From: Halococcus saccharolyticus DSM 5350 | GTDB lineage: Archaea > Halobacteriota > Halobacteria > Halobacteriales > Halococcaceae | Assembly (NCBI RefSeq): GCF_000336915.1 | Contig: NZ_AOMD01000025.1 | Span: 62,001-126,000 of the forward strand | DNA: 64,000 nt | Direction of reading: 5' to 3' | Shown: positions 7,847-46,758 of the stretch, piece by piece | Layout of the letters: each line of letters opens with the position of its first letter | Position numbering within the stretch: position 1 is the stretch's first letter | Position numbers and translations under genes: made by a program | The notes under the pieces: generated by a model | The model's database searches: none | What the model was told of the DNA's origin: nothing | Seen by the model: the letters and a program-made list of their open reading frames with translations, nothing else

Positions 7847-7947
7847 TGCACCAGCCGAGAATCGAACTCGGATCATGGGCTGTCTTCACGCGAACGGGGA
7901 CCGTCCGCATTTGGAAGGCCCAGGTCTTGCCATTAGACCACTGGTGC
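7847..7947 (-). tRNA. tRNA-Gly (anticodon TCC) with a 30-nt intron
   Basis: The acceptor stem GCACCAG (7947-7941) pairs with CTGGTGC (7854-7848), discriminator A. The anticodon stem TGGGC/GCCCA encloses CTTCCA, a 30-nt intron (7911-7882) and A, so the mature loop is CTTCCAA with anticodon TCC. Splice sites form a good bulge-helix-bulge: 4-bp helix CTTC/GAAG flanked by 3-nt bulges CAA and ACA, with inner helix ATGC/GCGT. The intron is at the canonical 37/38 position. The T-arm is CCGAG/CTCGG around TTCGATT. Confidence 0.93.
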
Positions 7948-42623: not shown

Positions 42624-42865
42624 GGAACGGTCGGTACGAACAGTGCTGATCTGTAGACCGACGACGAGGTTTTGTTCGTACGCGACAACTCCGAGACGTA
42701 CGCCCCGGACGACGCGTCGCGGACGCGGATGACTCCCGAGCCGACAGTCGGTCGTCTCGACGGCCGCTTTCAGCCACCGGGCGAACTGACGACGGGGAGA
42801 GCACAACAGCGACGCATCGCGGAGCGATCGCAGTGCCGTACGATGCGGACACCGGAGCGCAACCA

Positions 42866-43192
42866 ATGTCATCCAACCAAAGCGGGCAGCCATCGAACAC
42901 CGGCGGCGAGACGGGCGAGAAAAAGATCGTCGATGTCGAAGGCACGACGGAGGACACCACGTCCACGAGAGCGCGGTTCTGGCTGACGAACGACATCCTC
43001 GCGATCGTCCTCACCCTCTCGTTCATCGGGTTGTTGGCGATCGCCGGGCGGGGTATCATCGACCTGGGGGCGATCCCGGTCGAGATGCGAGTGGTCTACG
43101 TGAGTCTCGTCGGGGCCGCCGGCGTCTGGGCGTTCGGCGAGATGGCGTTCGAGAGATGGGGAGGCAATCGCAGCAGTGGCGGCGGGAAGTAA
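42866..43192 (+). CDS. small membrane protein, first gene of an unusual cluster
   Basis: A 108-residue protein. A polar disordered N-terminus (Ser/Asn/Gln/Gly-rich, residues 1-45) is followed by two hydrophobic segments (about residues 52-95: ILAIVLTLSFIGLLAIAG, then MRVVYVSLVGAAGVWAFG) and a basic Gly-rich end. Not recognised. It is followed at once by a disordered acidic protein and then a beta-helix protein, all on the same strand. Confidence 0.6.
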   Translation: MSSNQSGQPSNTGGETGEKKIVDVEGTTEDTTSTRARFWLTNDILAIVLTLSFIGLLAIAGRGIIDLGAIPVEMRVVYVSLVGAAGVWAFGEMAFERWGGNRSSGGGK

Positions 43193-43253
43193 CGACCACT
43201 CCGGCTGGAACAGCGATACGACCGACGAGCGAACACCACGGATCCCACACACG

Positions 43254-44042
43254 ATGGAATTCACCGAGAAACTCCTCGGGGACGGGGAGACGACAGCGAA
43301 CCGAGCGACGGACGAGAAAGCAGCGTCCCGAGAACAGACCGGTGGAACCGGTGCAGCCGGGGACGACGCAGCCGAAACGACCGAATCCTCGACGAACGGT
43401 GGCGCGCGCGGTGATACGTTCGCGTTCCGGGACGGCGACGTTGCGGCGGATTCGGCCGAAGCAGCGACGAAGAACGATGGCAAGCAACGAAACGGCGATT
43501 CATCGCCGCGCCACGACGTGGCGGCCGACCTCGGAACGGGGGATAGCGGCCAAGCGAGGCGCGACAAACCGGGCCGTAGTGATGGTGTGCCAGGCCCACA
43601 GGACGATGTCGCCGCGGACCTCGGTATGGACGAAACAGCGGCCACAGGAGCCGATACAACCGCCGACGCACAGCGGACGGACACAACCGACGCGCCAAGC
43701 GATGCAGCCGAGACGGAGGCGAACGATACGTCCGGTGACGGGGCAGGGGCAGATTCGGTGACGGGAGCGGCGACACCGACGAACAACGACTCCAACCCGG
43801 GGTCAAACGGAACCACCTCCGACCGAACCAGAACGGATGCGGGGAGCACGAGCGAGGATGTAGCCGCGCCGATGGACGGGCGTATCCTCCACATCGCGGC
43901 GGCACAGTCGATCACCGTTACCGATGGTCACACCGTCCGCATCGACGGTATCCGCGACGTTTCCCTCGCTGCGGAGCCGGAAACCGACGCCCAGAACGAA
44001 CACGCCACGGAAACGCCAGACACAGTGGGCTCCCGGACGTAG
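43254..44042 (+). CDS. disordered acidic protein with DVAADLG repeats
   Basis: An approximately 262-residue, low-complexity protein rich in Thr, Asp, Ala, Glu and Gly. It repeats a DVAAD-type motif at least three times (GDVAADSAE, HDVAADLGTGD, DDVAADLGMDE) plus a last SEDVAAPMDG. Only the C-terminal 55 residues look folded: RILHIAAAQSITVTDGHTV with alternating hydrophobics. There is no signal peptide. The frame is open from 43176, overlapping the previous gene; the Met at 43254 (MEFTEKLLGDG) is preferred. Codons are richer in A than in neighbouring genes. Function unknown. Confidence 0.6.
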   Translation: MEFTEKLLGDGETTANRATDEKAASREQTGGTGAAGDDAAETTESSTNGGARGDTFAFRDGDVAADSAEAATKNDGKQRNGDSSPRHDVAADLGTGDSGQARRDKPGRSDGVPGPQDDVAADLGMDETAATGADTTADAQRTDTTDAPSDAAETEANDTSGDGAGADSVTGAATPTNNDSNPGSNGTTSDRTRTDAGSTSEDVAAPMDGRILHIAAAQSITVTDGHTVRIDGIRDVSLAAEPETDAQNEHATETPDTVGSRT

Positions 44043-44137
44043 CTCGCGGGAGGACGGATCCGACCCCGGCAGCCGCTGATGAACGGTGGACGGCGTGTGC
44101 GAATCGAACGACGAACGAACTCGATCAGGGACAACAG

Positions 44138-46213
44138 ATGGGACACACGATCACGATCCGCGACGACGGCAACGGCGAAGCAAACAGCTACTGGATCGCG
44201 TTCAGCGGCGACACTCAACCCGAAAAGGAGACCGTCCACGGCGCGACCACGGATGACAGTGATTCGATCACGAAGACTGCGGAGGGGTACCGTGTCGAGG
44301 GCGAAGTCTACGGTGGCCGCGACGCCTATCGATACTACGGAAAGCGCCTCGGGATGGCGTTCGAGCATCCCGAACGCGTTCGGATCAAGATCAACGATCA
44401 GGACTGGCAGCCCCCCAGCGCGTTCGGGGAGACGACATCGTGGTCCGGCGGAAGCGGCGGTAAGGGGAGTGGCGGGGGCAGTAACGACGGTGGCGGAGGA
44501 AACAACAGTAACGCCAGCGACGGTGACGGCAGCAGCGGTGGCGGTGGCAACAGTGGGAACGATGGTAGCGGTAGTACCACTAGCGGGAGCAGTGGTAGCG
44601 GGAACTGCGGCGCAGGATCGCTGCCTGCGAGCGGCGACGGGCCGATCGAGCGCCACGGTATCCGATTCAAAACCGTCCTCCACGCCGTCGACGATCTCGG
44701 GATGGACCCCGGCGGCAACGAACCCATCGACGGGAAACTCAGCGACGCGGCCGCCGACTACACGCTGATCGTCTTTCCGGATGGTGCGTTCGCCAAACAC
44801 GAGAAGACGGTCCACACGGGGCTCCAGAACTTCGGGCTGTGTGGGCAGGACGCGACGCGGTTCGTCGCGCCTGAAGGGTTCAACGGGAAGTTCGTGGTTA
44901 TCGATCGCGGGATGAACACGCTGTTCGAGAACATCGACGTCGATCTCCGAGCGAACAACGCGACCCCTGGTCTCCATCTCGGTGCGCAGGAGGGTCTCGA
45001 TGTCCGTCACGTCCGCTACCGCGGTCAGGGTATCCATCCCGACTCCACGCCCCGCGGGGAGGGATCGGGCAACCCCGACGTGGCGAACGCGCTCAACGCC
45101 CACGTCCGCGCTCCCGACGGCACCGGCCGGATCAAACACGTCATCGCTCACAACGCCGGCCTGATGGGGGCGTACAACGAGGGTGACGGCCGCGTCGGGA
45201 TCTTCACCGGTCAGGCGAATGAGGGCACCCTCACCATCGAGGGCTGTAATTTCGAGGGGTTCCCGAACAATGGGCTCTACACCAGCCGGACCAACGGCGC
45301 GGTCCGGGTCGAGGGTGGCCTGTTCCGGAACAACGACATCTCGCAGGTCCGCCTCGGCAGCAAGGGCAGCTACGTGCAGAACGCGCTGCTCGAAGTCGAT
45401 ATGCGCGATTCGCGCTCGCCGAACCCCGAGGCAGCGCTCAACACCCGTGGCGTCCGCTTCGACGGTCCAAAATCGAAAGTCCACGGGGCCGAAGCCCGCG
45501 ACTGCACGATTCGGATCGCCGACACGCCACATTCGGGCGGTGCAGTGGTCGCGAACCAGGATACGGGCGCGTTCGGTGTCCGCAACGTGCGCATCCGAAT
45601 CGACACCGGCGGCGTCCGTGGCGTGGTCGGAAAACAGCCGTGTGGGATCGGCAATCGAAGTTCGCCGCCGACGCCCCACGCCGCGACGATCGAACAGGTC
45701 GGAATCGTTGGCCGAGGCGGGGCGGCTTCGGCGGTTCGGCTGGTCGATCGGCCGAGCTCGACCATCGACAAACTCTGTGTCTCGTGTGACGGGAACAACC
45801 GGACCGGCGTGCGGTGTACCGGATCGTCCGGCACTACGGTGCGGAACTCGAACGTGAACGTGAGCGGCACGCCAGTCGAGGGAGCCGCGACCGAGGGCCT
45901 CACGACCGACAAACACTGTCCAGGTGACGCCGCAGGTGCTGCGCAAGACGAGCCGTGGGAGCTGGAAATCGAGGCCGCGGCCGGAAAGACCGTCTACGTC
46001 CTTGGAGGCGATGGCGCGGTCGAAAAACGTGGCTCCGGAAACGGCGACAGCAACAAGCCCGTCCTCGGCACGGCGCGCGGCGAACTCGATGAAGCGAAAC
46101 ACCGCTACCGCATCGACGGGGCTTCGCGTGTGTTCGTCGCCGCCGATGGCCCGGTGACGCTCTATCGCAATGGCACCGAGGTAGGCGTGAAAGACCTCCG
46201 AACCGGTGCCTGA
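44138..46213 (+). CDS. right-handed parallel beta-helix protein without a signal peptide
   Basis: A 691-residue modular protein. Residues 1-95 form a small beta domain (MGHTITIRDDGNG...). A Gly/Ser/Asn-rich linker covers about 100-165. Residues 165-590 show the pattern of a pectate-lyase-like beta-helix, with repeats such as TLTIEGCNFEGFPNNGLYT and VRVEGGLFRNNDIS. A C-terminal beta domain ends the protein. No Sec, Tat or lipobox sequence is present, which is odd for a fold usually found outside the cell. It follows the disordered acidic gene by 95 nt and may be part of the same unit. Confidence 0.75.
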   Translation: MGHTITIRDDGNGEANSYWIAFSGDTQPEKETVHGATTDDSDSITKTAEGYRVEGEVYGGRDAYRYYGKRLGMAFEHPERVRIKINDQDWQPPSAFGETTSWSGGSGGKGSGGGSNDGGGGNNSNASDGDGSSGGGGNSGNDGSGSTTSGSSGSGNCGAGSLPASGDGPIERHGIRFKTVLHAVDDLGMDPGGNEPIDGKLSDAAADYTLIVFPDGAFAKHEKTVHTGLQNFGLCGQDATRFVAPEGFNGKFVVIDRGMNTLFENIDVDLRANNATPGLHLGAQEGLDVRHVRYRGQGIHPDSTPRGEGSGNPDVANALNAHVRAPDGTGRIKHVIAHNAGLMGAYNEGDGRVGIFTGQANEGTLTIEGCNFEGFPNNGLYTSRTNGAVRVEGGLFRNNDISQVRLGSKGSYVQNALLEVDMRDSRSPNPEAALNTRGVRFDGPKSKVHGAEARDCTIRIADTPHSGGAVVANQDTGAFGVRNVRIRIDTGGVRGVVGKQPCGIGNRSSPPTPHAATIEQVGIVGRGGAASAVRLVDRPSSTIDKLCVSCDGNNRTGVRCTGSSGTTVRNSNVNVSGTPVEGAATEGLTTDKHCPGDAAGAAQDEPWELEIEAAAGKTVYVLGGDGAVEKRGSGNGDSNKPVLGTARGELDEAKHRYRIDGASRVFVAADGPVTLYRNGTEVGVKDLRTGA

Positions 46214-46398
46214 CTGATACTCGATTTCGGCCTCATCCGCGATCGCTCTCACAACAGTTCGGTAGTTCCAGCGAAGAACGACCGTCATCCGATGGTCGTC
46301 GCTCGGTGACCGTGACGAGTACATTTGGACGGCACGACCGCGTGTCGTCCCTCTGTCACCGATCGATCACCACGGAGAAGTCACCGTTTGCTGCTCGA

Positions 46399-46758
46399 TC
46401 AGTTCTCGCCGGTGACTTCCGGCAGCACCCGAACGACGACGGTCACGAGACACGCCGATTCCTCGCGTTCGGGGACGTCCGCGATGTCAACATCGAAGTA
46501 GTGATACTCTCGATCCACTACGACGTACGTTTCCTCCCCGACGTTCGCGGCCTGACCACCCGTCTCGTCGGGTCCGATCTCACCGAAACGGATCGATTCG
46601 TCGGTCTCCGGGATCGGGAGGCTCGTCCCGTCGGCGGTGGCGAGCAGTTCCCCGGACTCGGCGTGACCGAACACCAGTTTGACCTTCTGGCTGTCGTGTT
46701 CGGTGATCCGTACCGGCGACCCCGTCCCGATCACCGCAGACCTCGCGCTCTCGCTCAT
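46399..46758 (-). CDS. small conserved hypothetical protein (119 aa)
   Basis: A 119-residue beta-rich acidic protein (MSESARSAVIGTGSPVRITE...). It has the alternation of short strands and turns of a small beta-barrel, for example KVKLVFGHAESGELLATADG and TYVVVDREYHYFDVDI. No known motif. The frame continues upstream across the divergent PrpD gene, so ATG 46758 is the likely start. Confidence 0.62.
   Translation of the reverse strand: MSESARSAVIGTGSPVRITEHDSQKVKLVFGHAESGELLATADGTSLPIPETDESIRFGEIGPDETGGQAANVGEETYVVVDREYHYFDVDIADVPEREESACLVTVVVRVLPEVTGEN

Follow-up and report, generated by a model that had tools for sequence, protein, structure and literature searches.

A recombining accessory cassette in Halococcus encodes a virus-shared membrane protein, an acidic protein and a beta-helix protein without an export signal

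Three consecutive genes on one strand of the Halococcus saccharolyticus DSM 5350 chromosome, here called A, B and C, form a real, conserved and recombining cassette. They lie in the 64,000-nucleotide stretch of DNA analysed in this work (the window, positions 62001-126000 of contig 25; its genome is referred to as G000), at 42866-46213, where a first-pass annotation of the window had placed them (Table 1). The cassette is related to haloviral proteins in gene A and, in the domain order of its largest protein, C, to a proviral protein encoded in the same genome. C is best described as a variant of the spike-like beta-helix proteins, with a function that is predicted. Our preferred reading, which we hold tentatively and at somewhat less than an even chance, is that A-B-C is a virus-related, spike-like, polysaccharide-binding accessory cassette of exchangeable specificity, resident in the chromosome.

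Table 1. Features of the A-B-C locus, in window positions
Feature	Position	Strand	Basis
Gene A, 108 aa, two hydrophobic segments, PHROG_32830	42866..43192	+	profile match, alignment
Gene B, 262 aa, acidic, disordered	43254..44042	+	sequence comparison
Gene C, 691 aa, predicted beta-helix protein without export signal	44138..46213	+	ORF, start comparison, predicted structure
C N-domain, residues 1-100, with domain X at 3-81	44138..44437	+	domain and profile comparison
C Gly/Ser-rich linker, residues ~101-165, length varying between species	44438..44632	+	alignment, model
C right-handed beta-helix (predicted), residues ~166-600	44633..45937	+	tree, AlphaFold, Foldseek
C C-terminal beta-domain, residues ~605-685, degenerate domain X, absent in G003 C	45950..46192	+	alignment, model
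Sharply bounded stretch of divergence between G000 and G003, in which the N-domain is a better-kept island	43300..46400		nucleotide identity

The set is present in two of the nine other Halococcus genomes searched, from two other species of the genus (G002 and G003), at an identical chromosomal site. Direct reading of the loci gives the same order, A-B-C, in all three species, followed in each by an MmgE/PrpD-type gene. The co-occurrence that had been put forward for checking is thus found in three Halococcus species, and the three genes were not found together outside them (in searches that covered 60 relatives for the whole set and, for A, 391 genomes of the class). Among the 60 relatives, A was detected in G002 and G003 only and B, by sequence search, in G002 only, and relatives of C occur in 28 genomes. 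Six other Halococcus genomes have an unrelated gene at that site, beside MmgE (L154, L155, L157, L158, L159 and L160); its product, a thiamine-pyrophosphate-type enzyme, is like most of the neighbours named from its sequence alone. A moaB-type gene and a small membrane-protein gene border the cassette in the window, and genes of both types are recognisable in G006 and G008 on the far side of the thiamine-pyrophosphate-type gene. Given the shared order and a site that is occupied otherwise elsewhere, the chromosomal site is variable and A-B-C is an accessory cassette inserted there. Its neighbours, as called, approximately, with a simple composition-based gene caller, include none that we recognised as a capsid, terminase or integrase gene, and A-B-C is therefore no provirus. 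No att-like or convincing flanking repeats were found around it, and the locus is absent from the proviruses listed for DSM 5350 (PMC13321033).

Overall GC content is ordinary. A base composition richer in A than that of neighbouring genes had been reported for the set; this is overstated, holding mainly for B (z=2.5 against 53 ORFs of the window), with C about 1 SD up. No Pfam family matched A, B or C at E<=1. The segment 5' of A (42640-42865) is 94-96% identical to its counterparts in G002 and G003, a level equal to or above that of the adjacent coding DNA, and may contain a regulatory element or an extended reading frame of A. Far from the locus, Rfam places a 101-nt tRNA on the minus strand at 7847-7947, possibly intron-containing, which is absent from the ARAGORN list.

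The absence of an export signal from C, noticed at the outset, withstands inspection of the start: there is no in-frame ATG, GTG or TTG upstream, and residues 1-170 contain no RR motif. All three species share the start, and the gap between the stop of B and the start of C in G003 is just 27 nt. With no upstream start and a conserved one, a missed signal peptide or a wrongly chosen start was rejected. The description of C as a beta-helix protein with a Gly/Ser linker is likewise borne out by an AlphaFold model, which predicts a right-handed beta-helix over residues 166-595 (pLDDT ~95). The N-domain is predicted to be all-beta (pLDDT 88), and the model of the full-length protein resolves the helix but not the N-domain and linker. 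Neither the fold of the N-domain nor, by sequence, C itself found a significant match in the PDB. Foldseek searches of the PDB with the helix returned the Sf6 and HK620 tailspikes as best matches (E 4e-6 to 1e-3), together with the adhesin PfbA, the mannuronan epimerase AlgE4 and a GH87 glucanase, adhesins and epimerases matching nearly as well as tailspikes; in a viral structure library the matches were phage tail spikes and pectate-lyase-type proteins. The TM-scores are low (0.2-0.4), and the comparison therefore supports a fold class and a polysaccharide ligand without singling out tailspikes. No direct match to C was obtained in phage records or IMG/VR.

The closest relatives of the helix are Halococcaceae proteins with Tat signals, at about 45-52% identity. 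A twin-arginine pattern is found in 50 of the 55 members of the helix family in the genome collection, the remainder comprising three variant twin-arginine starts, one truncated protein and one with an uncertain start. This signal, nearly universal among the helix relatives, is absent from all three C proteins; in C, the N-terminal beta-domain and the Gly/Ser linker take its place. Domain X occurs widely among exported cellular proteins, and the Tat-exported relatives of C contain 84 copies of it, as C-terminal repeats. C shares with these haloarchaeal proteins a homologous helix and the same domain X, but it has no such signal, and its domain X stands at the N-terminus, a single degenerate copy being present at the C-terminal end (residues 608-675 in G000; none in G003 C). 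Several relatives are encoded near polysaccharide-type genes, as far as these can be recognised by sequence reading. Halostella pelagica and Salinibaculum litoreum each have a recorded plasmid of ~100,260 bp, and the beta-helix proteins encoded on the two (L166 and L170) are the same in sequence, which reflects either recent transfer or a mixed culture.

The arrangement of C recurs in a tailed provirus on contig 33 of the same genome, which encodes a signal-less protein of 331 aa with domain X first, then a Gly/Ser linker and then a beta-rich part. The two proteins have in common this domain order and the invariant N-x-x-W and A-[FY]-G motifs before the linker; they differ in that their N-domains are only 30% identical and that the part following the linker is shorter in the proviral protein and unrelated in sequence. 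A terminase gene lies ~3 kb from the gene for this protein, which is outside the recognised tail genes. The C N-domain also matches a 37,096-base IMG/VR record that we equated with this provirus, AOMD01000033:12416-49511, one of those listed for DSM 5350 (PMC13321033). The N-domain is thus common to C and the proviral protein and is a candidate virion-binding domain. A second tailed provirus of this genome, on contig 2, encodes tape-measure and baseplate proteins and also has helix relatives. On its minus strand (L016:7629-9391), the gene for a 183-aa domain-X protein overlaps a separate gene for a signal-less beta-helix protein, as if N-domain and helix had been split apart.

Identity between G000 and G003 is uneven across the locus: 94% for A and 93% for MmgE, 75% for the N-domain of C, 33% for its helix and 34% for B. 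At the nucleotide level it drops sharply at ~43,300 and recovers at ~46,400, and these boundaries are recombination-like. In a phylogenetic tree, the helices of G000 and G002 lie inside a Halococcaceae clade of cellular Tat-exported proteins, and that of G003 groups with proteins of Halomarina and Halogranum (100/98). An AU test rejects a single clade for the three C helices (p=2e-10). Tree and test alike are to be read with caution, since the branch leading to G003 is long and the odd divergence was the reason for choosing the group. An exported paralogue pair from the same two genomes (G000_C30b and G003_C7b) has no such jump, with a tree path of ~0.28. Between G000 and G002, C has a dN of 0.051 and a dS of 0.36 (dN/dS ~0.14) and is under constraint. 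These comparisons show that the C helix has been exchanged between species behind a conserved N-domain.

Gene A had been described as a two-helix membrane protein, in agreement with its hydrophobic segments at residues ~42-62 (hydropathy up to 2.3) and 73-95 (~1.5); it is 93-94% identical in G002 and G003. The profile PHROG_32830 matches it (E=3e-11), and tblastn finds matches to proteins of phiH1, HCTV-5 and HVTV-1, with weak single-sequence scores. The PHROG_32830 proteins phiH1_200, HVTV-1 gp23 and HCTV-5 gp28 resemble A in size, in the two hydrophobic segments and in two motifs that are invariant in the alignment, R-x-W-x-TND and W-x-FG. They differ in having other neighbours in the viruses, with no B or C recognised alongside. 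In phiH1, the invertible tail-fibre segment has phiH1_200 on its downstream side, and the record of this gene names C450_17958 as a homologue. When 391 genomes of the class were searched with a profile, A homologues were found in 15 genomes of 8 genera; no match was found in plasmid records, and a single-sequence scan of genome contigs, a set from which near records may be absent, gave no relative. Some of the homologues are in proviruses, with a major head protein at L137 and a packaging ATPase at L138, where the gene order is SH1-like in our reading. Others are chromosomal, adjoining a KefB-type antiporter. The use of A as a strictly viral marker was therefore rejected: because homologues also occur at ordinary chromosomal loci, A alone is no proof of viral origin, and we regard the family, from its distribution, as virus-shared.

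Two observations were made next to the A homologues. A membrane protein with the pattern PAES-x-PDG...PHH-x-LY adjoins them in SH1-like proviruses as well as at chromosomal KefB-type loci (L138, L139, L144; L134-L136). Near those of genus g20 (L134:9887-10966 and L135:5280-6383) a signal-less protein is encoded in which an acidic disordered stretch precedes a beta domain rich in repeats that may be a propeller.

B has a net charge of -32 and no hydrophobic segment. Of the DVAAD-type repeats ascribed to it, the enrichment is real: DVAA occurs in four copies, a count reached by DVAA in none of 20,000 shuffles and by any 4-mer in 35 of 20,000. The repeat is not conserved, since B of G002 has three copies and that of G003 none. 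The conserved parts are the N-terminus, MEFTEKLLG, and a C-terminal patch at ~200-240; G003 B, strongly diverged at 34% identity to G000, yet keeps MEFTEKLLG. Against PHROG, B gave no more than a weak match (E=0.11) and G003 B none.

In the virus-related reading that we prefer, C would be made in the cytoplasm as a spike-like protein that attaches to a carrier through its N-domain. The Gly/Ser linker would provide reach, and the beta-helix would bind, and possibly cleave or modify, a wall or capsular polysaccharide. With the helix swapped behind a constant N-domain, specificity could change without alteration of the docking part. A would sit in the membrane and B would act as an acidic tether or assembly factor. 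C would be released by lysis or with a particle rather than through Tat or Sec, and would lack an export signal for that reason. Among the nearest known systems are tailspikes of the Sf6/HK620 type, which like C have an N-terminal domain followed by an exchangeable right-handed beta-helix and no signal peptide, and which are its best fold matches; AlphaFold and Foldseek predict the right-handed beta-helix body for C as well. In contrast to C, they have virion genes around them, and C has a long Gly/Ser linker and an N-domain without a significant structural match. Of the four options offered by the first-pass annotation, a virus-derived, tail-fibre-like system fits best, although a role in a working virus is not supported, because no other viral gene, virion structural genes included, was recognised beside the locus. 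The virus-related reading, with its putative viral origin, is favoured by the family of A, the domain order that C shares with the provirus, the missing Tat signal, the tailspike-like predicted fold, the helix exchange and the constraint on C. Against it speak the lack of recognised viral neighbours and of att-like repeats, the chromosomal homologues of A, the place of the G000 and G002 helices in a cellular Tat clade, the presence of domain X in cellular proteins, the low identity to the proviral N-domain, the low TM-scores, the lack of direct matches to C in phage records and IMG/VR, and the position of the proviral gene near the terminase and outside the recognised tail genes.

The main rival is a purely cellular one, in which C is a paralogue from the polysaccharide-associated Tat family that has lost its signal and acts inside the cell, either in the cytoplasm or just beneath the membrane. 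A and B would keep it in place, and nascent wall polysaccharide is one possible substrate. The G000 and G002 helices within the Halococcaceae Tat clade, the cellular repeat that is domain X, the absence of recognised viral neighbours and the relatives near polysaccharide-type genes would all suit it. We nevertheless judge it doubtful, because a provirus of this genome has the signal-less order of N-domain, linker and beta part too, A is a member of a halovirus family, and wholesale helix exchange is typical of receptor-binding proteins and not of internal enzymes. A surface appendage of the ordinary kind, another of the initial options, is weakened because the Tat signal of almost all relatives is lost. 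Another rival makes C a surface adhesin that reaches the outside without a signal, by some pathway not yet recognised, while A and B serve to anchor it in the membrane and to tether it. The fold match to PfbA, the suitable linker and variable helix and the membrane type of A are in keeping with such an adhesin, but it leaves the signal loss unexplained in a protein whose same-helix relatives use Tat, and no secretion genes adjoin the locus; we consider it unlikely.

The exchange of a C-terminal part behind a conserved N-terminus is also what a toxin-like or polymorphic competition module would display. Here, however, the variable part is the entire beta-helix and not a small toxin domain, no toxin domain was found with Pfam, and neither a partner nor an immunity-like gene was recognised among the neighbours or downstream, so that the toxin-like option finds no support and is extremely improbable. 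That the cassette is a functionless, decaying remnant of a provirus would agree with the viral relatives of A and the few genes left. This is already disfavoured, and very improbable in our judgement, given frames that are open in three species and the constraint on C between G000 and G002.

In a bolder reading, A-B-C could be a host-resident store of exchangeable viral-type spikes, arming the particles of resident proviruses or interfering with incoming ones. On two or more occasions, beta-helices of wall-associated secreted proteins would have come to stand behind a spike-type N-domain, minus their Tat signals, and been kept on an archaeal chromosome beside membrane and acidic partners. We offer this as a speculative and rather unlikely proposal.

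In the envelope of Halococcus a highly sulfated polysaccharide takes the place of the S-layer, and no free virus infecting the genus is known (PMC13321033). C, spike-like, without a signal and with a helix exchanged between species, is a specific candidate for binding or cutting the Halococcus wall, and since a provirus of this genome has a related arrangement, it can be tested which part recognises the wall. The cassette may offer a handle on how viruses, or parts derived from them, recognise a sugar wall in a genus without an isolated virus. If the reading is true, it would mean that in archaea domains pass between virus-type spikes and the secreted proteins of cells.
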